In this document: positions 13,525-23,853 of the stretch, one piece after another
Layout: every line of letters begins with the position of its first letter
How positions within the stretch are numbered: position 1 is the first letter of the stretch
DNA from: Chromobacterium haemolyticum DSM 19808
GTDB taxonomy: Bacteria; Pseudomonadota; Gammaproteobacteria; Burkholderiales; Chromobacteriaceae
Length of the DNA stretch: 64,000 nucleotides
NCBI RefSeq assembly: GCF_000711885.1
Contig: NZ_JONK01000001.1
Location: 372,001-436,000, forward strand
Reading direction: 5' to 3'
Program-made: the position numbers and the translations under genes
Notes under the pieces: model-generated
The model's input: the letters and a program-made list of their open reading frames with translations, nothing else
Database searches by the model: none
What the model was told of the DNA's origin: nothing

Positions 13525-14535
13525 ATGCAAGCCCAAGCTATCGCCGCCGCAGATGCGGCGCCGCAAGAAAATCTGGAGCCGCTCTGGCTCCGCGCGAGAC
13601 AAGGCCAACTGGCCCGCGCCGTTGTGATGGTGCGTCCTCACGACTTCGCCTTCAATGAACAAACCGGGGCAGACAACGTGTTCCAGCACCGGCTGCAACT
13701 GCCGGCGGCCCAGATCACCGCGCTGGCCCTGGCCGAATTCGACGCCATGGCGCAGCGGCTGCGCGATCACGGCGTCGAAGTGCTGGTGCTGGAGAAAAGC
13801 CCGGACGGCTATCCGACGCCGGACGCCGTGTTTCCCAACAACTGGTTCACCACCAGCGCCGACGGCAGCCTGCACGTCTATCCGATGCACACGCTGAACC
13901 GCCGTCGGGAGCGGCGAGTGGAAGAGCTGTGCCAATTGCTGTTGAACCATGGTTACGACGTGGAGCAAGTGGTGTGGGCCGGCCATCCGCTGGAAGAGGA
14001 GTTGATTTTGGAGGGCACCGGGGTGATGGTGTTCGATCACCCGCGCAAGCGTGTGTACGCGGCGCGTTCACAGCGCTGCCACCCGAGCGCCTTGTATCGT
14101 TACGCGCGCCGGCGCGGACTGGAGGCGGTGCACCTGTTCGATACCGTGGACAGCCGCGGCGTCCCCATCTACCACACCAATGTGATGATGAGCGTGGGCG
14201 AGGGCTTCGCGGTGATCTGTTCCGAAAGCCTGCACCGGCCGGAGCAGCGGCGGCAAGTGCTGAGCGCGCTGGGTGAGCATCACGAGGTGATAGATATCAG
14301 CCTGGCCCAGGTGGAACGCAGCTTCTGCGGCAATATCCTGCAGCTGCGCGGGGCCGGCGGCCAGCCGCTGATCGCGATGTCGGAGCAGGCTTGGAAGGGC
14401 TTCACGCCTGCGCAGCAAAAAGTGCTGGAGCGCCACGGCCAGCCGGTGGTGAACCCCATCCCCACCATTGAAGCGGTGGGCGGAGGCAGCTGCCGCTGCA
14501 TGCTGGCCGAGTTGTTCCTGCCGCGCGTCCGCTAG
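13525..14535 (+). CDS. ctlX: CtlX-like citrulline/arginine hydrolase (arginine-deiminase fold)
   Basis: 336 aa from the ATG at 13525; in-frame ATGs at 13444, 13471 and 13495 are alternatives without better ribosome sites. Motifs of the CtlX family: VVMVRPHDFAFNEQTGADN near the start, AVFPNNWFTT, EGTGVMVFDH, the catalytic His in IYHTNVMMSVG, and the C-terminal nucleophile Cys in GGSCRCMLAELF. The family is related to amidinotransferases and arginine deiminase and is linked to citrulline utilisation. It follows the deacylase by 103 bp. Together with DDAH, which yields citrulline, it could complete a citrulline-using route. Confidence 0.85.
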   Translation: MQAQAIAAADAAPQENLEPLWLRARQGQLARAVVMVRPHDFAFNEQTGADNVFQHRLQLPAAQITALALAEFDAMAQRLRDHGVEVLVLEKSPDGYPTPDAVFPNNWFTTSADGSLHVYPMHTLNRRRERRVEELCQLLLNHGYDVEQVVWAGHPLEEELILEGTGVMVFDHPRKRVYAARSQRCHPSALYRYARRRGLEAVHLFDTVDSRGVPIYHTNVMMSVGEGFAVICSESLHRPEQRRQVLSALGEHHEVIDISLAQVERSFCGNILQLRGAGGQPLIAMSEQAWKGFTPAQQKVLERHGQPVVNPIPTIEAVGGGSCRCMLAELFLPRVR

Positions 14536-14549
14536 CGGCTGTCCCGGCA

Positions 14550-14577
14550 ACGGCCAGCGACACTCTGTGCTGGCCGT
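14550..14577. terminator. Stem-loop after ctlX
   Basis: ACGGCCAGC pairs with GCTGGCCGT around a 10-base loop. No T-run follows, so it may be a mRNA 3' stabiliser or a weak terminator. Confidence 0.45.
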
Positions 14578-15000
14578 GAGGGAGCGTCAAGGGTTTGGGA
14601 CAGCTGGCGAAGTTGGGCGGCAGGGGGGACGAAAGTCGATGGGGAAAAGGGAGTCATTGCGGTCTCCAAGTCAGCGCTTGGAAACCTGTACGGCGATGTT
14701 TGGACAGGCGCGTGACAAGGTTGGAAGACGGGCGCACTCGATTAAAGACCGGTAACTCACTAGGCGTTCCCTGCCACGGCCTATCCGAATGGACACAGCG
14801 TGGCAGCAGACGTGGTTGCGCCAACGCGGACACTAACGTGGTGTGGATTGCCCAGGTTGAAGGCGTGGAAGTGCTTGTCTTCGACGCGCAGTGGAGTTCG
14901 CATGTCGAGTGCCAAGTTCAAATTCTGCTTGCCTGCATGAGCCGCCACGGCGTAGCCAAGAAACTGTTAATATTCTCGTCATTTTTTAAGAGGAAAAGAC
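14578..15000. other. Intergenic region without recognisable gene
   Basis: About 420 bp. Several open frames occur (for example from 14595), but they have shadow-like composition and no family match. A short stretch GCGCGTGACAAGGTTGG (14711-14727) recurs with one change near 46416, and I cannot explain it. The A/T-richer end (AATATTCTCGTCATTTTTTAAGAGG) supplies the ribosome site of the next gene. Confidence 0.4.
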
Positions 15001-15474
15001 ATGACAGATATTGGCTTCACCGCTGACCACACCGCGCCGACATATAAATTGAACAGTCCGGCGGGGGTAGCGATTGCTACTTTTATTGGCTCCAGCTTGG
15101 CAGGCGCTTGGCTGATGGCGGAAAACTGCAAGATGCTGGGGCAGCGCGATCAGTTAAAGAAGGTCTGGGGTTTGGGTGTCGGCCTGCTGTTTGCGATGCT
15201 GGCGCTTAGCCTGGTTTTGCCCGACAGTGTGCCTGGCATGGTTTTTACCGTTGCGCAGACGGTGGTCATGCAAATGCTGGCCAAGCAACGTTTTGAGACG
15301 ACGCTGGCCGCGCACGGCGCAAGCGGCGGCTTGGTGTTTTCCAAATGGCGGGCAGCCGGAATTGGCCTCTTGTTCGCGCTGGCGCTGCTTGCGGTATTGA
15401 TCGCCATCATCGCCGCGATGATGCAGTTGAGCGGTTTGACGTTATCGGAGTTGTTGGCAGCGGCCGGCATGTAA
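15001..15474 (+). CDS. Small integral membrane protein, unknown
   Basis: 157 aa with an AGAGG ribosome site. Four hydrophobic segments are visible: about 20-40 (AGVAIATFIGSSLAGAWLMA), 54-72, 76-90 and 118-145 (AAGIGLLFALALLAVLIAII). No signal peptide, cysteine pair or catalytic motif is seen. I do not recognise the family. It is convergent with the dppA-like gene, with a perfect hairpin between them. Confidence 0.65.
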   Translation: MTDIGFTADHTAPTYKLNSPAGVAIATFIGSSLAGAWLMAENCKMLGQRDQLKKVWGLGVGLLFAMLALSLVLPDSVPGMVFTVAQTVVMQMLAKQRFETTLAAHGASGGLVFSKWRAAGIGLLFALALLAVLIAIIAAMMQLSGLTLSELLAAAGM

Positions 15475-15493
15475 GCGTGGCCTAGACGGGTTT

Positions 15494-15518
15494 CAGGGCG
15501 CCGCCGGGCGGCGCCCTG
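15494..15518. terminator. Hairpin between convergent genes
   Basis: CAGGGCGCCGC pairs perfectly with GCGGCGCCCTG (11 bp, loop CGG). It lies between the ends of the membrane-protein gene and the dppA-like gene. There is no long T-run, so it is a probable bidirectional terminator of the GC-stem type. Confidence 0.6.
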
Positions 15519-15526
15519 GAGCGGGC

Positions 15527-17122
15527 TTACTTCACGCTTACGCCGGTAAACTCATAGTCGCCGAACGGGCTGATCTTGAAGCCGGTCACTTCCTTGCGCA
15601 TAGGCTGGTTGACGATGGAGTGGGCGATGGTGGTCCACGGCAGGTCGCGTTTGAAGATGGTTTGCGCCTGCGAGTACAGCTTGGCGCGTTCGGCCTGATC
15701 GTTCAGGGTGCGCGCCTTGACCACGAGCGTGTCGAACTCTTTGTCGCAGTAGCGCGAGTAGTTGGAACCGTTCACCGCCTCGCAACTGAGCAGCACGCCC
15801 AGGAAGTTGTCCGGGCTGGCGTAATCGCCGGTCCAGCCCATCAGGCCGGCATCGTGCTCGCCGCGCTTCATCCGCTTCAGGTATTCGCCCCATTCATAGG
15901 ACACGATCTTGGCCTTCACGCCTATCTTGGCCCAGTCGGACTGGATCATCTCCGCCATCAGCTTGGCGTTGGGATTGTACGGCCGTTGCACCGGCATCGC
16001 CCACAGGCTGAGCTCGAAGCCGTTGGGGTAACCGGCCTTGGCCAGCAGCGCCTTGGCGGCGGCCACATTGTAGGGCGCGTTCTTCAGGCTCTTGTTGTAG
16101 GACCACAGCGAGGACGGGAAGGGATTGCTGGCGGCCTGGCCTTGGCCCTGGTAGACCGCGTCTATGATGGCCTGGCGGTTGATCGCCATGTCCAGCGCTT
16201 GACGCACCTCGCGTTTTTTCAGCTGCGGCTTATCCATGTTGTAGCTGAGGTAGCCGATATTGAAGCCGGGCGCGGTCAGCATCTTCAGCTTGGGGTCGGT
16301 CTTCATCACCGCCAGATCGCTGGGGCGCGGGTAGGACATGATCTGGCACTCGCCGGCTTTCATCTTCTGGTAGCGCACCGAGGGATCGGTGGCGATGGCG
16401 AACACCAGATTGTCCACCTTGACCGCGCCCTTGTCCCAGTACGCCTTGTTGCCGGCGTAGCGGATTTGCGCGTCTTTCTGGTAGCGCTTGAAGATGAAGG
16501 GGCCGGTGCCCACCGGCTTTTGGTTGATGTCGGCGGCGCGGCCGGCCTTGAGCAGTTGGTCGGCGTATTCCGCGGACAGGATGGAGGCGAAGGGCATGGC
16601 GATCTTGATCGCCAGGTCGGCGTCCGGCTCCTTCAGCACGAAGCGCACCGTTTGCGCGTCCACTTTTTCCACCGCGCTGACGTTGCTGGCCAGGCCGGTG
16701 TCCACCGCGTAGGGGAATTCCGTGTTGTAGGCTTTGCGGAAGGGGTGGTTCTTGTCGAACATGCGCATGAAGGTGAACACCACGTCGTCGGCGTTGAAGT
16801 CGCGCGTCGGCTTGAAATAGTCGGTGGTGTGGAACTTCACGCCCTGGCGCAGCTTGAAGGTGTAGATCTTGCCGTCCGGCGAGGCGCTCCAGGAGGTGGC
16901 CAGGCTGGGAATGGCCTTGGTCGAGCCTTTTTCAAAGCCCACCAGGCGGTCGAACATGGCGTGGCCGGCGGCGTCGAAGGTGGTGCCGGAGGTGAACTGG
17001 GCGGAATCGAAACCGTCCGGGCTGGCTTCGGAACAGTAAACCAGGGTGCCGGCGGCCTGAACGGATACGGCGAAAGCGGCGCAGCAGGCCGCGGCCAACA
17101 GTTTCGGTTGGGTCATTTTCAT
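15527..17122 (-). CDS. dppA: Peptide ABC transporter substrate-binding protein (DppA type)
   Basis: 531 aa. Signal peptide about 1-23 (AACCAAFAVSVQA|AG). Family 5 binding-protein text: LVYCSEASPDGFDSAQFTSG, the SBP_bac_5 signature region IPSLATSWSASPDGKIYTFKLR (in parts), NADDVVFTFMRM, PVGTGPFIFKRYQKD, VRQALDMAINRQAII and LMGWTGDYASPDNFL. It binds di- or oligopeptides or related solutes in the periplasm. No dpp permease or ATPase genes are adjacent, so it is an orphan receptor here. It is divergent from the peptide/HDO cluster, which starts 405 bp away. Confidence 0.92.
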   Translation of the reverse strand: MKMTQPKLLAAACCAAFAVSVQAAGTLVYCSEASPDGFDSAQFTSGTTFDAAGHAMFDRLVGFEKGSTKAIPSLATSWSASPDGKIYTFKLRQGVKFHTTDYFKPTRDFNADDVVFTFMRMFDKNHPFRKAYNTEFPYAVDTGLASNVSAVEKVDAQTVRFVLKEPDADLAIKIAMPFASILSAEYADQLLKAGRAADINQKPVGTGPFIFKRYQKDAQIRYAGNKAYWDKGAVKVDNLVFAIATDPSVRYQKMKAGECQIMSYPRPSDLAVMKTDPKLKMLTAPGFNIGYLSYNMDKPQLKKREVRQALDMAINRQAIIDAVYQGQGQAASNPFPSSLWSYNKSLKNAPYNVAAAKALLAKAGYPNGFELSLWAMPVQRPYNPNAKLMAEMIQSDWAKIGVKAKIVSYEWGEYLKRMKRGEHDAGLMGWTGDYASPDNFLGVLLSCEAVNGSNYSRYCDKEFDTLVVKARTLNDQAERAKLYSQAQTIFKRDLPWTTIAHSIVNQPMRKEVTGFKISPFGDYEFTGVSVK

Positions 17123-17526: not shown

Positions 17527-17607
17527 ATGCAAGCCAGCACGCAAGAAGCGGTGGTCGTGGTCAAACCCCGCAATCCGCGTCCGGTCCTGGTACCGGTTCA
17601 CTTGTAA
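17527..17607 (+). CDS. Putative 26-residue precursor peptide of the HDO cluster
   Basis: A 26-codon frame from ATG to TAA with the strong site AAGGAGAGCCAA. The N-terminal half is Gln/Ala/Val-rich with one Glu. The C-terminal half is VKPRNPRPVLVPVHL, rich in Pro, Arg and Val, with no Cys, Ser or Thr. It is the first frame of an operon of three metal-oxidase-like proteins with N-terminal PqqD/RRE-like regions, and a hairpin 58 bp downstream could make it more abundant than the enzymes. These are features of RiPP precursors. Alternatives are a leader peptide controlling translation or a free proline-rich antimicrobial peptide. It is short enough to have arisen by chance, so experimental proof is needed. 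Confidence 0.6.
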   Translation: MQASTQEAVVVVKPRNPRPVLVPVHL

Positions 17608-17664
17608 TCGGGTATCGCGGGGCTGCCGTTTCAGGCGTAAAGCCCTGACCGACCCGGATTCCGC

Positions 17665-17684
17665 GCCGCCGGCTTGCCGGCGGC
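17665..17684 (+). terminator. Attenuator-like hairpin between peptide and enzymes
   Basis: GCCGCCGG pairs with CCGGCGGC around the loop CTTG and is followed by CGCGCTTATCTTTC. It lies between the peptide stop and the ribosome site of the first oxidase. Partial termination here would favour peptide over enzyme transcripts. Confidence 0.5.
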
Positions 17685-17713
17685 CGCGCTTATCTTTCAG
17701 AGGAGACGTCCTC

Positions 17714-18703
17714 GTGTCCCATCCGTCCGATCTCCGTTTTTGTCTGAACGGCGAGGTGATTTCGCAGGCGCCGCTGGTGGTCAAGACCGCCGGCGACGAG
17801 GAGTTGGAAATTTCCGCGGGCCTAGCCAACGCGGAGGAGGTCAGCGCGCTGATGGCTAGGCTGGCCGGGGGCTGCAGCCAGTTGGACGCGGAGCGTCTTC
17901 TGCCGCGTCAATCCGCCGACGAAGTGCGGCGTCTGCTGGTCAGCCTGGAAAACTACGGTGTCATCCGCCCGCTGGCGCCGGCCCGCGGCAAGACTGGGCT
18001 GGAGGTGCTTCTGGAGGTGGAGGATCTGTCCAACCGCCTGTTGTACCAAACGCTGTACCGCAATCCATTCTGGACCCACTGCCAGAACGCCAGCCAGCCG
18101 GGGGACATCCCGGAGCGGGTGTTCCATGGCATGGTGATTGAAAACTATCACTTTTTGTTCCGCGAAAGCTATTTCGACGCGCCGGTGCTGTCCTATGTGC
18201 CCAATACTCAGGTGCGGCTGGCGATGAACGCTTTCTTCGCCGAGGAATACGGCCACGACGAGCTGCTGTTGCAGGCCTTGAACCGCATCGGCGTCAGCCG
18301 CGAGGATCTGGCGCACACCGTGCCCCTGCCGCAGACCATGGCGCTGTGCAACGCGCTGGCGTATTGGTCGCACAACGATCCGCTGTTCTTCTTCACCACG
18401 CTGGGCATTCTGGAAGGCAAGGACATTCGTCAGGACTCCTTCCTGGACGCCGCCTACCGTTTGGGCGTGGACGCGGATTTTCTGCGCCCGGTGAAGGCGC
18501 ACTCGGACATCAATCTGAAGGGCGAGCACGGCAGCCTGACCCGCAAGATATTCGCGCAGATTCCGGTGGTGGATCAGGAAACGGCACGGCGCTTGTTGGC
18601 GCAAACCCATTTATTCGTCGAGCTTTACGACGCTTTCTACAGCGCGGTCTGGCGGCACTATCTGCACGCCGACACCTTGCTGCGCCGCATCGAGCACTAC
18701 TGA
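17714..18703 (+). CDS. Heme-oxygenase-like metal oxidase (HDO) with N-terminal RRE-like region, first of three
   Basis: 329 aa from a GTG at 17714, nine bases after AGGAG; the frame is open upstream but has no good start. Residues 5-88 look like a PqqD-type RiPP recognition element: strands around LRFCLNGEVI and VVKTAGDEELEIS, then helices ending VRRLLVSLENYGVI. Residues 100-329 match the iron-containing redox enzyme/Haem_oxygenas_2 pattern. Candidate metal ligands are E143 and H146 (IENYHF), E177/E178 and H181 (FAEEYGHDE), E234 (ILEGKD), and H263, D265 and H272 (HSDINLKGEH). The ligand set is complete, so oxygen-dependent chemistry on the peptide is plausible. The specific reaction is unknown. 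Confidence 0.75.
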   Translation: MSHPSDLRFCLNGEVISQAPLVVKTAGDEELEISAGLANAEEVSALMARLAGGCSQLDAERLLPRQSADEVRRLLVSLENYGVIRPLAPARGKTGLEVLLEVEDLSNRLLYQTLYRNPFWTHCQNASQPGDIPERVFHGMVIENYHFLFRESYFDAPVLSYVPNTQVRLAMNAFFAEEYGHDELLLQALNRIGVSREDLAHTVPLPQTMALCNALAYWSHNDPLFFFTTLGILEGKDIRQDSFLDAAYRLGVDADFLRPVKAHSDINLKGEHGSLTRKIFAQIPVVDQETARRLLAQTHLFVELYDAFYSAVWRHYLHADTLLRRIEHY

Positions 18704-18712
18704 GGAGGCAAT

Positions 18713-19714
18713 ATGCACGGACCCGGCACCCATGACCTGTTCCGCTTTCCGGCGCTGCGGCCTGGGGTGGAAATCCAGCAGCAGGACGGCGGCGTGGCCT
18801 TGCTGTACCGCGAGCAGTCCTGCGATTTGCAAGTGGCCGATGAAGGCCGTCTGCAATTGCTGGCCTTGCTAGACGACCTGCAGCGCGCGCCGGCCAGCAT
18901 GGCCGCGTTGCGCGCCGCGCATCCCGAACTGGCGGGGACGATCCCCGGTCTGCTGGAAGAGCTGGACCGCCTGGGCCTGGTGACCGAGGCGAGCTTTGAA
19001 TTGCCGGACGACGCGCTGTCCGGCTGCGAATTCAACACCCGGCTGCGCAACTTGGCGCAGCGGGCGATGCGCAAGCGCGGCCATTCCCGGCTTTACGGCA
19101 TGTTGTCCGACGGCAGCGCGCCGCGCAATGTGCTGATCGGCTACGCGCTGGAGTATTACTATCTGGTGCGCGCGGCGCCGGGCCTGATCGCTTCGGCGCT
19201 GTCGCACGCGGACAGCCGGCAGAATCAGCGCAGCATCCAGCGCTTCCTGGTGTCGGAACTGGATCACGACCAGATGCTGGCGGAAAGCCTGGCGAGCGTG
19301 GATATGGAGGTGGAAGGGCTGGACCACCTGCAGCCGCTGCCGTCCACCTTCGCCTTGTGCGCGGCGCTGGGCGTGTTCGCGCGTCAGCATTTGTTGTCGT
19401 TCAAGAGTGTGTTGTTTCTGTTCGAAATGCCCGGCGACGAGTTCAACCGCGCGCTGGTGCGTTGCTGCGAGCGCGCCGGGCTGGACAAGGGCTTTTGGGA
19501 GCCGCTGCTGCGCCACGCCTACCTAAACGACACGCTGGGGCACGACGACATCACCGCAGAGTTGTTGCAGGACATCAGCGCCATCAGCCGCGAGGAGCAG
19601 CTGGTAGTGGAGAAAAACCTGGTGCTGACCATAGAAACCATGGCGTTGCAGGATGAGGAAATCGTTGATTACTACAGCCGGCCGGACGCCTTGATGCCGC
19701 GGCTGTATTTGTAA
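18713..19714 (+). CDS. HDO-like protein with N-terminal RRE-like region, second of three (altered metal site)
   Basis: 333 aa, GAGGAGG site, nine bases after the first HDO. Residues 12-93 again resemble a PqqD/RRE winged helix (LRPGVEIQQQDGGVALLY, then LLEELDRLGLVTEA). The HDO part keeps E147, E182 and H185 (SELDHDQ), E238 (FLFEMP), and H268 and H277 (HAYLNDTLGH). However, the first-helix His is replaced by Tyr (LEYYYL, Y150 where the paralogues have His), and the Asp two residues after H268 is missing. It may be a catalytically impaired partner or have a changed metal site. It lies in the same operon as the other two paralogues. Confidence 0.75.
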   Translation: MHGPGTHDLFRFPALRPGVEIQQQDGGVALLYREQSCDLQVADEGRLQLLALLDDLQRAPASMAALRAAHPELAGTIPGLLEELDRLGLVTEASFELPDDALSGCEFNTRLRNLAQRAMRKRGHSRLYGMLSDGSAPRNVLIGYALEYYYLVRAAPGLIASALSHADSRQNQRSIQRFLVSELDHDQMLAESLASVDMEVEGLDHLQPLPSTFALCAALGVFARQHLLSFKSVLFLFEMPGDEFNRALVRCCERAGLDKGFWEPLLRHAYLNDTLGHDDITAELLQDISAISREEQLVVEKNLVLTIETMALQDEEIVDYYSRPDALMPRLYL

Positions 19715-19756
19715 GCCCCCGCAGTAGCCCCCGAGACGGCAGTCAAGGAGAGAGCG

Positions 19757-21247
19757 ATGGAAGCCTGGCAAGTCACCCATTATCGCGCGCCGCATCTGGT
19801 GCCGTTCAGCGCTCACCTGGCCGACGACGGCCAGACCGTGGTGCTGGCGGCGGACGCCAAGGAGTACGAAATCCAGTTTTCCGGCGTGGAAGGCGGCCGG
19901 GTGCTGGACAGCGTGCTGGCCATGGCCAATCCGGACGCGGAGATTTGGTTTGACATCCACGCCGGTTCGGCGCCGTCCTGGCAGCTGTCGCTGGCGGAGC
20001 AACTGGACGCCTTGTCGCTGATCCGGGACGCGCCGGCGGACCCGGCGGCGCTGGAGAGGCAGCGCAGGCAGTGGAGCGAGTTGATCCGGCGCTGCGTAGA
20101 CAAGTTGTTGGCGGCCACCGCCGCGGACGCGCGCGGCGCTTACGCGCCGGTGGTGCTGAGCATGCTGCGCTTGCTGGATGAGCCGGCGCCGCGGGCCGAC
20201 GCTTTTTGCATTGACGATGTGGGCGCGCCGGAGTGGCGTGACAATTTCGCGCTGCAAACCTTCTACCTGCAAAAGCTGTATCTGGCCGACAACCTGCCGC
20301 AGGCGCTGACGCTGTGGCGGCGGGTGCTCAACGGCTTTGCCGACGGCGCCGGCTTTGTCGGGCTCAGCCGCCGGGAGGCTCGCGCGGAGGAAGACCCCGC
20401 CAGCGACGGCTTCTACTGCCCGGCGCATCTGGAAGCCTATTTGCTGTGCCTGGCGGACTTGCTGCTGCTGGCGCCCAAGCCTCAGGCGCGGCGTAGGCTG
20501 CTCAGCCGGGAGCCGGCGTCCACGGTGGACAGCGGCGTCAACTTCATGCGCCGCGCCGAGCAGTTTGCGCTGGACGGCCTGGCCCAGCTGGGCGAGTCGC
20601 GCTATGTAAGCCGAGTGAACGCCGAGGACGCCGGCTTCGGTCCCTTGGTGCAAGGCTTGTTCATCGAGCAATACCATGTCACTCAGCGCTTCGTCGAAAT
20701 CATCGCGCCGTTGATGACCAAGCGGCTGCGCAGCCCGCTGAAGCAACGCGTTTACCGTTACTTCCAGGAAGAGCTGGGCCACGAGGTCTACGAGCGCGCC
20801 ACCTGCGAAGCGTTGGGGGTGCCGCCGGCCTGGCTGGATCAGGCGTTGCCGTTGCCGCTGTTTCAGGCCTATGTCGACGCCTTCACCGTGTTGGGTCGCT
20901 ACGATCCCATCGGCTATCTGAGCTCCATCATGGTGACCGAGGGCATGCTGGGCGTGGACAACCCGGTGCACGAGCGGCTGGAATCGCTGGTGGAGTTTCG
21001 CTCCGATTACCAGCGCGTGGCCAAGCGCCACGACGATCTCAACGTCGAGCTTAATCACGCGGCGTTGTCGCGGCTGTTTTTCCGCGAAATCAGCGCCTTG
21101 TCGCCGCTGACGCAGCAGCGCGCGCTAGCCAATCTGGCGTATCTGCTGGAGCTCAATCTGCGGGCGATGGACCAGGTGGCGGATTTTTACGGCCCGCAGT
21201 CGCAACTGGCCGTCTGCTCGCTGGACGGCTATGCCGTCGCCGGCTGA
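19757..21247 (+). CDS. Large HDO-like protein with N-terminal RRE-like region, third of three
   Basis: 496 aa with the site AAGGAGAGAGCG. Residues 10-92 resemble the RRE-like regions of the two preceding proteins (SAHLADDGQTVVLAADA, then LAEQLDALSLIRDA). Residues 100-290 are helical and of unknown function. The C-terminal HDO domain has E304 and H307 (FIEQYHV), E338/E339 and H342 (FQEELGHEV), E395 (VTEGML), and H425, D426/D427 and H434 (HDDLNVELNH). Spacing of the last motif (His, +4 Asn, +9 His) is identical in all three paralogues. It overlaps the aminotransferase start by 17 bp, so translation is coupled. Confidence 0.75.
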   Translation: MEAWQVTHYRAPHLVPFSAHLADDGQTVVLAADAKEYEIQFSGVEGGRVLDSVLAMANPDAEIWFDIHAGSAPSWQLSLAEQLDALSLIRDAPADPAALERQRRQWSELIRRCVDKLLAATAADARGAYAPVVLSMLRLLDEPAPRADAFCIDDVGAPEWRDNFALQTFYLQKLYLADNLPQALTLWRRVLNGFADGAGFVGLSRREARAEEDPASDGFYCPAHLEAYLLCLADLLLLAPKPQARRRLLSREPASTVDSGVNFMRRAEQFALDGLAQLGESRYVSRVNAEDAGFGPLVQGLFIEQYHVTQRFVEIIAPLMTKRLRSPLKQRVYRYFQEELGHEVYERATCEALGVPPAWLDQALPLPLFQAYVDAFTVLGRYDPIGYLSSIMVTEGMLGVDNPVHERLESLVEFRSDYQRVAKRHDDLNVELNHAALSRLFFREISALSPLTQQRALANLAYLLELNLRAMDQVADFYGPQSQLAVCSLDGYAVAG

Positions 21248-22508
21248 GCGCGAGGCAGCGCAAACGGCCTACGCGGCCAGCGTCAACCCGGCTTGGCTGG
21301 ACGTGTTGCGGCAATGCGGGCTGGACGCCCGGCCGCTGGAGGCAGAGGGCTGCTGGCTGCGGCTGGAGGACGGCCGGCGTTGGCTGGACTTCGTCGCCGG
21401 CTACGGCGCGGCGGTATTGGGCCATCGGCCGCAAGCCTTGCTGGCCGGCTTGGCCGAAGACCTGTTCGATCCCGCGCCCAATCTCCATCCGCTGGGGTTT
21501 TCCGCCTTGGCCGGCGATCTGGCTGCGGAACTGCTGGCGCTGGCAGGCTTCGCCGACGGCAAGGCCTTGTTCGCCAGCACCGGCGCCGAAGCGGTTGAGG
21601 GCGCGCTGAAGCTGGCGAGCATGGCCAGCGGCCGCCGGCGCGCGCTGAGTTTCGACGGCGGCTTCCATGGTCTTACGCTGGAGGCCACCAGCCTGGCGGG
21701 CAGCGATTTCTGGCGGCAGGGGCTGCCGAGGAGCGAGGACTGCGCGGTGCTGCCCTGGGGCGATCTGGCCGCGACTGCGGCCGAACTGGCGCGCGGCGAC
21801 GTGGCCGCGGTGCTGTTGGAGCCGGTGCAGGGCAGCGCCGGGGCGCGCGCTTGGCGCGGCGAGGCCTTGTCGGAGCTGGCTGAACTGTGCCGCCGCCACG
21901 GCGCGCGGCTGATTTACGACGAGGCCTTGTCCGGCCTGGGCCGCTGCGGCGCCTGGTTTGCTTACCAGGCGCTGGGCGCGCCGGCGCCGGATATGCTGAT
22001 TGCGGCCAAGGGCCTGAGCGGCGGCGTGCTGCCGGTGTCGGCGCTGTTGTTTCGCGAAGATATTTACCAGGCGGTGTTCGCCCGGCCCGGCTGCGCCAAG
22101 ATCCACGGTTCCACCTTTGGGGGCAACCGGCTGGCGTTGTGCTGCGGACTGCGCATGCTGAGCCTGCTGCGCCAATTGGACGCGCCGGCGCGGGCGCGGG
22201 AGCGCGGCGAAGCTTTGCGGCGACGCTGGCGCGGAGCCGGGCTGGAGGGTTTTGAGCTGGAGGGCGTGGGATTGATGCTGGCGCTGCGCGCCGGCCCGGC
22301 GGCGCAAGAGCGGCTGGGCGAGGGCGCGGCCGGCCTGCTGTGGCTGCAATTGCTGCAAGAAGGCGCGCTGACGGCGCCGGCGGCCCACGACGCCGCCGCG
22401 TTGCGCTTGCTGCCGCCGCTGAACGTGGCGGAGACGGAGTTGGATTTTTTCCTGAAAGCTTGCCGGCGCGCGATCGCCGCGCTGGAGCAAGAGGCGACGA
22501 CATCATGA
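21231..22508 (+). CDS. Class III PLP-dependent aminotransferase of the HDO cluster
   Basis: 425 aa. Fold type I class III features: STGAEAVEGALKLA (residues 116-129, phosphate binding), FDGGFHGLTLEATS (151-164), LLEPVQGSAG, IYDEALSGLGRCG with D230 facing the pyridine nitrogen, and the Schiff-base Lys K260 in AAKGLSGG. A GSTFGGNRLA block follows. It is similar to ornithine/GABA-type transaminases but was not assignable to one. Its start lies inside the end of the third HDO gene and its stop overlaps the exporter start (ATGA), so it belongs to the operon. It could modify a released amino acid, a peptide terminus after oxidation, or a side-chain amine. Confidence 0.87.
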   Translation: MPSPAEREAAQTAYAASVNPAWLDVLRQCGLDARPLEAEGCWLRLEDGRRWLDFVAGYGAAVLGHRPQALLAGLAEDLFDPAPNLHPLGFSALAGDLAAELLALAGFADGKALFASTGAEAVEGALKLASMASGRRRALSFDGGFHGLTLEATSLAGSDFWRQGLPRSEDCAVLPWGDLAATAAELARGDVAAVLLEPVQGSAGARAWRGEALSELAELCRRHGARLIYDEALSGLGRCGAWFAYQALGAPAPDMLIAAKGLSGGVLPVSALLFREDIYQAVFARPGCAKIHGSTFGGNRLALCCGLRMLSLLRQLDAPARARERGEALRRRWRGAGLEGFELEGVGLMLALRAGPAAQERLGEGAAGLLWLQLLQEGALTAPAAHDAAALRLLPPLNVAETELDFFLKACRRAIAALEQEATTS

Positions 22509-23425
22509 AGATAGGACACGTATTGCTGGCGGTGCTGGTGGCGGCCATCTGGGGCCTCAGCTTCATCGTGGTGAAGATAGGCTTGACCGAGTGCCCGCCG
22601 CTTTTGCTGGCGGCCTTACGCTTCGTGGTGGTGTTCGCCGCCGGGGCCTGGTGGTTTTCGCGGCCGTCCTTGCCTTGGCGCTGGTATTTGCGCGCCGGGC
22701 TGTGCCTGGGCGTGATCCAGTTCGCCTGTCTGTTCTCCGCCATCAAGCTGGGCATGCCGGCCGGCATCGTGTCGGTGCTGGCCCAGTTGCAGGTGTTCAT
22801 CACTTTGCTGCTGGCCAGCCTGTTATTGGGCGAGACGCGATCCCGGTTGCAAAAGGCGGTGATGGCGCTGGCGCTGCTGGGCGTGCTGCTATTGGGCTAC
22901 GCTCGTTATCATGACGCCTTGCCCTTGCTGCCGCTGGTGCTGGCCTTGATCGGCTCGGCCGGCTTCGCCTGGGGCAATGTGGAGCTCAAGCGGGCCGGCA
23001 AAGTGGACATGTTCGCCTTCACCGTATGGATGAGCCTGGTGCCGCCGCTGCCTCTGCTGCTGCTGTCCTTCGCGCTGGAGGGCGGCCCGGCGGCGGCTTG
23101 GGCCGCGTTGGCCGGCTTCGGCTGGACCGCCACGCTGGCGCTGTTGTTCCTGGCCTTGATCGGCACGCTGTTCGCGCTGGGCAGTTGGGGCAAACTGCTC
23201 AGCCTGTATCCGGCCACGCTGGTGGCGCCGTTTTCGCTGCTCAGCCCGGTGTTCGGCCTGCTGGGCGGCTATCTGATCCTGAACGAGCGCTACGACGCGC
23301 TCAGCATTGTCGCGTCGGCCTTGATCGTGGCGGCGCTGGCGCTGAACACCTACGCGGGCAAACTGGGCGTCTTGCGCGCTTGGCTGGCGCGGGTCCACCT
23401 GAGCAAGGGAGCCGCGCCGCGATGA
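22505..23425 (+). CDS. EamA/DMT-family exporter of the HDO cluster
   Basis: 306 aa from the ATG at 22505, overlapping the aminotransferase stop by four bases. Ten hydrophobic segments and two EamA repeats are seen (first WGLSFIVVKIGLTECPPLLL, second starting near LALIGSAGFAWGNVELKRAG). Drug/metabolite transporters of this type export amino acids and small metabolites through the inner membrane. Position in the operon suggests export of the pathway product or an intermediate. A frame open further upstream is a shadow of the aminotransferase. Confidence 0.87.
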   Translation: MKIGHVLLAVLVAAIWGLSFIVVKIGLTECPPLLLAALRFVVVFAAGAWWFSRPSLPWRWYLRAGLCLGVIQFACLFSAIKLGMPAGIVSVLAQLQVFITLLLASLLLGETRSRLQKAVMALALLGVLLLGYARYHDALPLLPLVLALIGSAGFAWGNVELKRAGKVDMFAFTVWMSLVPPLPLLLLSFALEGGPAAAWAALAGFGWTATLALLFLALIGTLFALGSWGKLLSLYPATLVAPFSLLSPVFGLLGGYLILNERYDALSIVASALIVAALALNTYAGKLGVLRAWLARVHLSKGAAPR

Positions 23426-23853
23426 GAAAGCCGGAACTGGACATCTCCACCGACAAGCACAGGCTGGACGTGGCGCTGATCCACGCTTTTCTCCATGATC
23501 ACGCCCCCTGGGCGAAGGGCATTCCTCGCGCCACCGTGGAGCAGGCGATCGCAGGCTCGTTGTGCTTCGGCGCGTATCTGGACGGACGGCAGGTGGGCTT
23601 TGCCCGCGTGGTGACCGATCTGGCCACCTTCGGTTATCTATGCGATGTGTTCGTGGTGCCGGAATGCCGCGGGCGGGGTTATGCGCGCCAGTTGATGCAA
23701 TGCGTCGCCGCCGAGCCGGCCTTGGCCAGGCTGCGGCGCATCGTATTGGTGACTTCCAACGCGCATCCGGTGTACCGGCCGTTCGGCTTCGCCGCGCTGG
23801 AGCATCCGGAACGCTATATGGAGCTGCACCGGCCGGATGTCTATCAGGGCTAG
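23422..23853 (+). CDS. GNAT-family N-acetyltransferase of the HDO cluster
   Basis: 143 aa from the ATG at 23422, overlapping the exporter stop (ATGA). The acetyl-CoA loop is VVPECRGRGYARQLMQ (about residues 77-92). The C-terminal region VTSNAHPVYRPFGFAAL is typical of GNAT enzymes with a phosphate-loop partner strand. It may acetylate the product for self-protection or as a tailoring step. Its TAG stop shares a CTAG palindrome with the stop of the convergent SDR gene. Confidence 0.85.
   Translation: MRKPELDISTDKHRLDVALIHAFLHDHAPWAKGIPRATVEQAIAGSLCFGAYLDGRQVGFARVVTDLATFGYLCDVFVVPECRGRGYARQLMQCVAAEPALARLRRIVLVTSNAHPVYRPFGFAALEHPERYMELHRPDVYQG

Follow-up and report, generated by a model that had tools for sequence, protein, structure and literature searches.

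Several described biosynthetic systems bring together a short peptide, or a small open reading frame (ORF), and an enzyme of the heme-oxygenase-like diiron oxidase (HDO) type. The subject of this report is a gene cluster of Chromobacterium haemolyticum DSM 19808 that resembles each of them in part. It lies in a stretch of 64,000 nucleotides (contig NZ_JONK01000001.1 of assembly GCF_000711885.1, positions 372,001 to 436,000 of the forward strand), called the window throughout, and consists of genes for a 26-residue peptide (PEP), three paralogous HDO-fold proteins (HDO1, HDO2 and HDO3), a class III aminotransferase (AT), an EamA-type exporter and a GNAT N-acetyltransferase. The cluster probably encodes an undescribed pathway of the ribosomally synthesized and post-translationally modified peptide (RiPP) type, in which the free His-Leu at the C-terminus of the peptide is the substrate of the oxidases and a small product is exported.

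In the thiovarsolin system (varAYTO), a double bond in the side chain of an Arg depends on the HDO-like protein VarO, according to the available part of PMC6511847. As here, that account has a RiPP precursor together with an HDO-like enzyme, in a cluster with ATP-grasp and MFS genes and, in the part available, no protease; the core chemistry it gives is YcaO/TfuA thioamidation of a repeat precursor, whereas the present cluster has three HDOs, each with an N-terminal domain that appears to be of the RiPP recognition element (RRE) kind, and a non-repeated C-terminal His-Leu. A thiovarsolin-type RiPP was rejected, because Pfam recognized no YcaO or TfuA among the six window proteins (HDO1, HDO2, HDO3, AT, EamA and GNAT). 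In mangotoxin biosynthesis, the HDO MboA binds a tripeptide whose carboxylate at the C-terminus is a ligand of Fe1 and whose C-terminal residue is oxidized (PMC13185094, part available). The likeness lies in a short peptide with its C-terminal residue as the target of an HDO, and in an EamA exporter, MboF (available parts of PMC13185094 and PMC3355146); as far as these texts go, the difference is that ATP-grasp ligases, not the ribosome, assemble the Mbo peptide, and that there is one HDO, with a canonical Asp ligand, and a dedicated reductase, MboB. A mangotoxin-like cluster was rejected, since neither ATP-grasp nor an MboB-type reductase is among the six window proteins (ATP-grasp genes are present in 8/38 related loci).

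The gvg cluster of Pseudomonas fluorescens WH6 needs a small ORF (GvgB), a heme-oxygenase-like protein (GvgC) and a class III aminotransferase (GvgH) for its amino-acid toxin, 4-formylaminooxyvinylglycine (FVG), according to the available parts of PMC8067088 and PMC8064604. All three have counterparts here, as have its amino-acid exporters and MocR-type regulator (the latter in 10/38 related loci). Compared by description, gvg differs in having one HDO and in a GvgB that is lysine-rich and is given no chemical role in the parts available. An FVG-like cluster was rejected, as the domains of the GvgA hydrolase and the GvgF carbamoyltransferase are not among the six window proteins.

The biosynthesis of pyrroloquinoline quinone (PQQ) uses a short precursor, PqqA. 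It resembles the present cluster in having an HDO-fold enzyme and a PqqD-type domain, which are naturally fused in PqqCD (PDB 5vrd), and differs in that here the RRE-like domain is N-terminal, there are three oxidases, and no radical-SAM domain is found among the window proteins. PQQ biosynthesis itself was rejected, there being neither a PqqE radical SAM protein nor PqqB among the six. A daptide cluster was likewise rejected, because AT scores 156.8 bits on the daptide_amino model, under its cut-off of 450. Searches of an open-access full-text library found no paper on a cluster of this kind, most subscription papers lying outside its scope. A preliminary description of this DNA knew of no described class composed in this way; to that statement, VarO is to be added as a precedent.

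Organization of the cluster and conservation of the peptide

The features are as follows (all on the + strand).

17527-17607: PEP, putative precursor or scaffold peptide, 26 amino acids, with AAGGAG upstream of the ATG; sequence MQASTQEAVVVVKPRNPRPVLVPVHL
Within 17527-17607: conserved C-terminus of PEP, KPRNPRPVLVPVHL
17608-17713: region between PEP and HDO1, assessed by folding against shuffles; possible read-through or attenuation element
17714-18703: HDO1, 329 amino acids, GTG start; RRE-like domain (about 1-90) fused to a heme-oxygenase-like domain (about 94-324)
18713-19714: HDO2, 333 amino acids; N-terminal domain homologous to that of HDO1, plus a heme-oxygenase-like domain
19757-21247: HDO3, 496 amino acids; N-terminal domain (about 1-90) homologous to those of HDO1 and HDO2, further helices, heme-oxygenase-like domain (259-486)
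21231-22508: AT, class III aminotransferase (Pfam Aminotran_3, 1.7e-58)
22505-23425: EamA/DMT exporter (Pfam EamA, 4.6e-25)
23422-23853: GNAT N-acetyltransferase (Pfam, 2.5e-13), candidate self-protection or tailoring enzyme

The preliminary description had listed a 26-codon frame with a strong ribosome site, three HDO paralogues, a class III aminotransferase, an EamA protein and a GNAT joined by overlaps, and all of these lie where it had placed them; the ribosome site is the AAGGAG before the ATG, and the overlaps are 17 nt (HDO3/AT), 4 nt (AT/EamA) and 4 nt (EamA/GNAT).

A profile scan of genome contigs with the HDO1 alignment gave 44 loci, of which 37 are close relatives (L039-L075) and seven are weak (L076-L082). 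A short frame with a conserved end lies upstream of HDO1 in 37/37 close relatives, and in 40/40 loci when the window, a Robbsia andropogonis plasmid (L038) and the Chromobacterium locus L033 are added; this set of 40 is partly drawn from the same Chromobacterium genomes as the genus sample described below. The end of the peptide reads P-[VIT]-L-[VILM]-[PA]-x-H-L-stop, in which P, L, H and L are invariant in 40/40, and there are 19 distinct 14-residue tails among the 40 loci. The N-terminal part is variable: peptides are 19-48 amino acids long in 29/40 loci, and a sequence of about 60 amino acids, unrelated by eye, is present in the other 11 (Sphingomonas, Dyella and some Burkholderia/Paraburkholderia). 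Starts in homologous loci were placed by homology and are predicted, as for the L062 peptide, which is called at 86 amino acids as compared with 60 in its relatives. Six further Chromobacterium genomes have a peptide that is identical to that of the window (L028-L030) or 88-92% identical (L031-L033). The Robbsia plasmid has all seven genes in the order of the window, and its frame, MSQATTKQPVIVVKPRNPRPVLIPVHL, has a good ribosome site and lies directly upstream of HDO1; it is unlisted in the gene table of the record, which is stated to be incomplete.

The conserved end was also counted as a strict motif, P[VIT]L[VILM]xxHL-stop. It occurs 38 times in the 32,220 stop-ended frames of L038-L075, once per locus, and once in the 2,684 stop-ended frames of the window. 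The controls were without it: 6,706 frames from the seven loci with weak homologues, 2,097 from four loci that have HDO3 only, and 3,722 from thirty PqqD loci. Between the window and Robbsia, the last 17 codons of the peptide differ by 11 synonymous and 2 non-synonymous changes; between the window and distant loci, non-synonymous changes exceed synonymous ones (11 vs 2 for L055), and the motif alone is retained. The motif was then tested out of sample, by a search for HDO1 in three carrier genera, where 18 of 144, 6 of 250 and 4 of 348 genomes matched. The resulting loci (L116-L148) have the motif in 33/33 cases and overlap the earlier set; among those that are really new, i.e., less than 99% identical to any known HDO1, it is present in 11/11 (L129, L132-L135, L137, L138, L140 and L146-L148; HDO1 81-97% identical to known; one genus sample gave eight of them and a second one three). 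The new loci are same-genus relatives, so the extension is a modest one. In L140, the HDO1 match is limited to residues 132-327, in a frame of 201 amino acids, and the peptide lies about 439 nt upstream, as in a broken or mis-assembled copy.

A chance or spurious ORF was rejected on the occurrence of the motif once per locus, the pattern of codon substitution and the 11/11 new loci. NCBIfam gave a single match for three of the peptides, at chance level (E 1.1). Hence, what is expected of a RiPP, a conserved gene-encoded precursor adjoining modifying enzymes, was found (40/40 loci, 11/11 new loci, once per locus in 38). The preliminary description had made its reading depend on conservation of the short frame in related clusters, and the frame is present in every HDO1-bearing locus examined (the 40/40 and 33/33 above, in overlapping sets). 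It had also considered homologous loci that lack any peptide and act on a free amino acid; the only homologous loci without a peptide are four with a lone HDO3, a destroyed metal site and no HDO1.

The main rival explanation is that the short frame is a regulatory leader (ribosome arrest or attenuation), whereby stalling at the proline-containing C-terminus and stop would control oxidases that act on a free amino acid. Such a leader would suit a frame that lies directly upstream of the operon and is conserved chiefly at its C-terminal end, as far as the stop. It would also suit the folding of the region between the peptide and HDO1 (17608-17713), which has a minimum free energy of -55.2 and a z of -3.4 against dinucleotide shuffles (-7.0 for the Robbsia counterpart); with mononucleotide shuffles, this stretch has z <= -2 in 24/40 loci, whereas z is > -2 in the other 16. 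A terminator-like pattern at 17670-17686 points the same way, though 3 such patterns were found vs a mean of 1.3 in shuffles. This folding signal fits a scaffold peptide as well as a leader peptide, and stem-loops 3′ of precursor genes are usual in RiPP operons, which weighs against the leader. Moreover, the RRE-like domains, which fit a peptide substrate only, would be left without a role on the oxidases, and the peptide keeps the same end despite differing sets of accessory genes. A regulatory leader is, on balance, unlikely.

Fold and metal site of the oxidases

HDO1 and HDO3 have a heme-oxygenase-like helical fold in their structural models, and HDO2 is assigned to it by sequence. The Pfam family Haem_oxygenas_2 matched HDO1 at 1.1e-11, HDO2 at 1.4e-5 and HDO3 at 2.5e-4, the latter two under the curated cut-off. 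The best PDB sequence match of HDO1 is MboA, and that of HDO2 is CADD/4-aminobenzoate synthase (8va9, 1rcw; 1.5e-6), whose fold is shared with the HDO1 and HDO3 models. We know of no peptide partner of CADD. According to the available part of PMC13108848, CADD uses up one of its own tyrosine residues.

The metal ligands of MboA are Glu86, His89, Glu143, His172, Asp176 and His181 (PMC13185094, part available). In a HMMER alignment, these correspond to E178, H181, E234, H263, N267 and H272 of HDO1, respectively (MboA numbering by an offset of 25 that we applied; equivalents in HDO2 and HDO3 from their own alignments). The weak homologues L076-L082, used as negative controls, were left out of the ligand alignments, as was Robbsia L038, and L068, which is at a contig end, was kept in one of the paralogue alignments only. 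Five of the MboA ligand positions are retained in every row of all three paralogues. A Glu in helix 1 is retained in 38/38 HDO1, 37/37 HDO2 and 28/37 HDO3.

N-terminal domains

Residues 1-96 of HDO1, compared as a profile with an alignment of 23 PqqD domains from related genomes, matched at 94.4% (E 9e-8, 45 columns), and a twelve-sequence subset of HDO1 N-termini matched at 93.5%. As controls, eleven segments of the three proteins were below 1%, and a GntR winged helix reached at most 6.3%. The N-termini of HDO1, HDO2 and HDO3 match one another at 93.7-95.5%. In the models of HDO1 and HDO3, the predicted N-terminal domain consists of strands followed by three helices. When the HDO1 N-terminal profile was compared with 177,635 PDB sequences, PbtF, LynD and PaaA, which we take to be RRE-bearing RiPP proteins, ranked 2nd, 5th and 7th, with weak E-values (0.032, 0.077 and 0.3). 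NCBIfam gave one weak lasso PqqD match and one weak PqqD_rel_X match among 16 members. For the HDO2 members, it listed 12 families, among them fol_rel_CADD in 36/37 (best 4.6e-10), PRK10725.1 in 10 (best 1.6e-4, apparently by chance) and PqqD_rel_X in one (0.11). Among the matches listed in structure searches with the HDO1 and HDO3 models, none aligned over the N-terminal domain, and nearly all covered the HDO domain alone.

The RRE-like nature of the HDO1 N-terminus is thus well supported by sequence comparison, and that of HDO2 and HDO3 may be inferred via their homology to HDO1. The preliminary description had given all three a PqqD/RRE pattern; this stands directly for HDO1, and for HDO2 and HDO3 by homology to HDO1 only. 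Its expectation of an RRE fold agrees with the strands and three helices of the models and with the specific PqqD match of HDO1. A DNA-binding winged helix instead of an RRE was rejected on the GntR control, a result that covers this family and not every kind of winged helix; a MarR regulator ranked 6th in the comparison with PDB sequences. Sequence and predicted topology together point to the precursor-binding element of a RiPP, which would presumably bind the peptide.

Elsewhere in the genome of the window (C23:45428-45547, - strand), there is a partial match to the PqqD family (24.1 bits) that contains a TAG in frame and has no connection with the cluster.

Proposed pathway

Computation finds at these loci a conserved peptide, a constant HDO1-2-3 core, the HDO fold, an RRE-like HDO1 N-terminus and homologues of that N-terminus on HDO2 and HDO3. 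From these, we infer the binding of the peptide, its modification and the site thereof, the order of steps, the release of the product, and its nature and use. The peptide would be a ribosomal scaffold, the variable N-terminal part of which may serve as a leader held by the RRE-like domains of the three oxidases. Its invariant C-terminus, with a free His-Leu-COOH, would be the substrate, and the C-terminal carboxylate could dock at the metal site by analogy with the C-terminal residue of Leu-Ala-Arg in MboA. The C-terminal Leu/His is proposed as the site because the conserved part ends at the stop, because His-Leu is invariant, and because of the MboA precedent. The three enzymes might then oxidize the terminal Leu, the His or both in successive O2-dependent steps (desaturation, hydroxylation, or C-C or C-N cleavage), and in the AT-bearing subtype the aminotransferase might act on the carbonyl thus formed. 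Host peptidases would release a small amino-acid- or dipeptide-like product, to be exported by the EamA protein (by EamA-family or MFS carriers across the loci), and the GNAT may protect the producer. In eight loci, genes of the L-amino-acid-ligase type suggest that another amino acid is coupled to the residue once it has been released.

Several points weigh against this reading. The position of MboA Asp176 is Asn in 38/38 HDO1, 37/37 HDO2 and 37/37 HDO3, such that the canonical set of three His and three carboxylates, as in MboA, is absent from the alignments of HDO1-3; because the third carboxylate ligand is Asn, HDO activity and metal content are uncertain. The direct PqqD match is confined to HDO1 and to 45 columns (HDO2 reached 2.3% and HDO3 26.6%), and a joint alignment of the three N-termini reached 54.2%. 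The PDB profile search was headed by an uncharacterized protein and placed a MarR regulator 6th, above PaaA, and Pfam gave no PqqD match for the HDO1 and HDO2 members. AT was not found in 12/38 loci (L038-L075, to which all accessory counts refer; one, L068, is a contig end). Pfam recognized neither a peptidase nor an MboB-like reductase among the six window proteins. The interpretation in the preliminary description, that the oxidases modify the small peptide, is nevertheless supported. More specifically, and more tentatively, the cluster might represent a new class of RiPP, uncommon and scattered over several bacterial orders. Three RRE-fused HDOs with Asn in the metal site would work in relay on His-Leu, and the non-proteinogenic amino acid or dipeptide so made would be cleaved off, in some lineages ligated to another amino acid by ATP-grasp enzymes, and exported as an antimetabolite; this is possible, if somewhat short of probable.

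If true, RiPP biosynthesis would extend to a route in which the sole tailoring enzymes common to all loci are HDO-fold oxidases with peptide-binding domains of their own, i.e., to peptide-scaffolded synthesis of small molecules by iron oxidases alone, without YcaO, radical SAM, MNIO or PEARL. Three HDO paralogues with one defined, genetically encoded substrate would be a resource for HDO research, and the change from Asp to Asn at a metal ligand in all three allows a direct test of metal-site assembly in HDOs. The need of the gvg amino-acid toxin cluster for unexplained small ORFs may also find an explanation here. The C-terminal motif enables more such clusters to be found, because genes of 19-60 codons are easily missed in annotation.

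Distribution and accessory genes

Close relatives of HDO1 are found in Chromobacterium, the Burkholderia group, Dyella, Sphingomonas, Pseudomonas, enterobacteria, Vibrionaceae and metagenome-assembled genomes (MAGs), the nearest named one being that of C. haemolyticum H4137 (98%). In the genus sample, the peptide and three oxidases are present in 7/19 Chromobacterium genomes, including that of the window. The cluster is rare and patchy, because in a sample of 398 genomes from the phylum of the window, its own genome was the sole match at 1e-10 (0/397 others). The Robbsia cluster is carried by the 124-kb plasmid p4 with a transposase gene near, which fits a patchy spread.

The HDO1-2-3 core is constant, and the genes around it vary from locus to locus. 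AT is present in 26/38 loci and GNAT in 15. Of the transporters, an EamA of the window type is found in 6 loci, MFS in 10 and a second EamA-family type, which looks RarD-like, in 8. ATP-grasp occurs in 8 loci, L065 having two copies, a GMC oxidoreductase adjoining the core in 5, and a GntR-aminotransferase (MocR-type) regulator in 10. Pfam on ten representative proteins agrees with the names given by eye: ATP-grasp with an L-amino acid ligase C-terminal domain in L064, L065 and L067 (L067 under the cut-off of that domain), MFS in L064 and L053 (L070 just under the cut-off), EamA in L046, GMC in L058, and GntR with aminotransferase in L038. None of the accessory genes listed here, whether AT, GMC, exporter, GNAT or any other, was recognized beside the core of the Sphingomonas loci. 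In the window, the top NCBIfam score of AT is for the PigE model (247 bits vs a cut-off of 850), and the closest model for the exporter is an O-acetylserine/cysteine exporter (170 bits vs 472). The accessory genes look like lineage-specific finishing, export and protection around a core of peptide and three oxidases.

This variation bears on two further rivals. One follows the logic of PQQ or mycofactocin: a cofactor or redox metabolite would be cut from the C-terminus of the peptide and kept in the cell or shared. A very short precursor with invariant C-terminal residues, the HDO/PqqC fold and a PqqD-like domain would all agree with it, as would Sphingomonas loci with no recognized exporter or GNAT beside the core and a GMC oxidoreductase that could be the user of the cofactor; the lack of a radical-SAM domain among the six window proteins, the exporters or GNAT of many other loci and the patchy distribution (0/397) make it quite improbable. 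The least probable is that the peptide does not serve as a scaffold for a small molecule but is itself mature, lightly modified and secreted, as a signal or antimicrobial. Although oxidases and a small precursor suffice for a peptide RiPP, and no downstream enzyme is common to all 38 loci, the exporters are of small-metabolite type, ATP-grasp ligases occur in 8/38 loci, and a single ABC-type gene was recognized, by eye, in L054 (no systematic search for peptide exporters or peptidases having been made).

Some loci contain additional genes. In Enterovibrio, a sulfotransferase (L064:17024-17815; Pfam 1e-20) lies between MFS and GNAT, and the two ATP-grasp genes of L065, a Lysobacteraceae MAG, are in tandem (13832-16266; Pfam run on the first). 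Four Chromobacterium genomes (L034-L037) have a lone HDO3 homologue, 60-61% identical and in an open frame, without HDO1, HDO2, AT or peptide, e.g., L034:7762-9303 (-) and L035:5351-6829 (+). In 4/4, the metal ligand His342 is replaced by Arg and the H-x3-N-x4-H segment is lost; this homologue is a relic or a repurposed pseudoenzyme. Its neighbours in L034 resemble, by eye, LodA/LodB-type and violacein genes. Finally, Burkholderia stagnalis, Burkholderia sp. SRS-46 and Paraburkholderia atlantica have, at a distance of a few kb from the core, a further stretch that resembles HDO2 but is divergent, with 25-28% identity (L057:7884-8660 (-), L075:7885-8661 (-) and L059:1606-2199 (+)).

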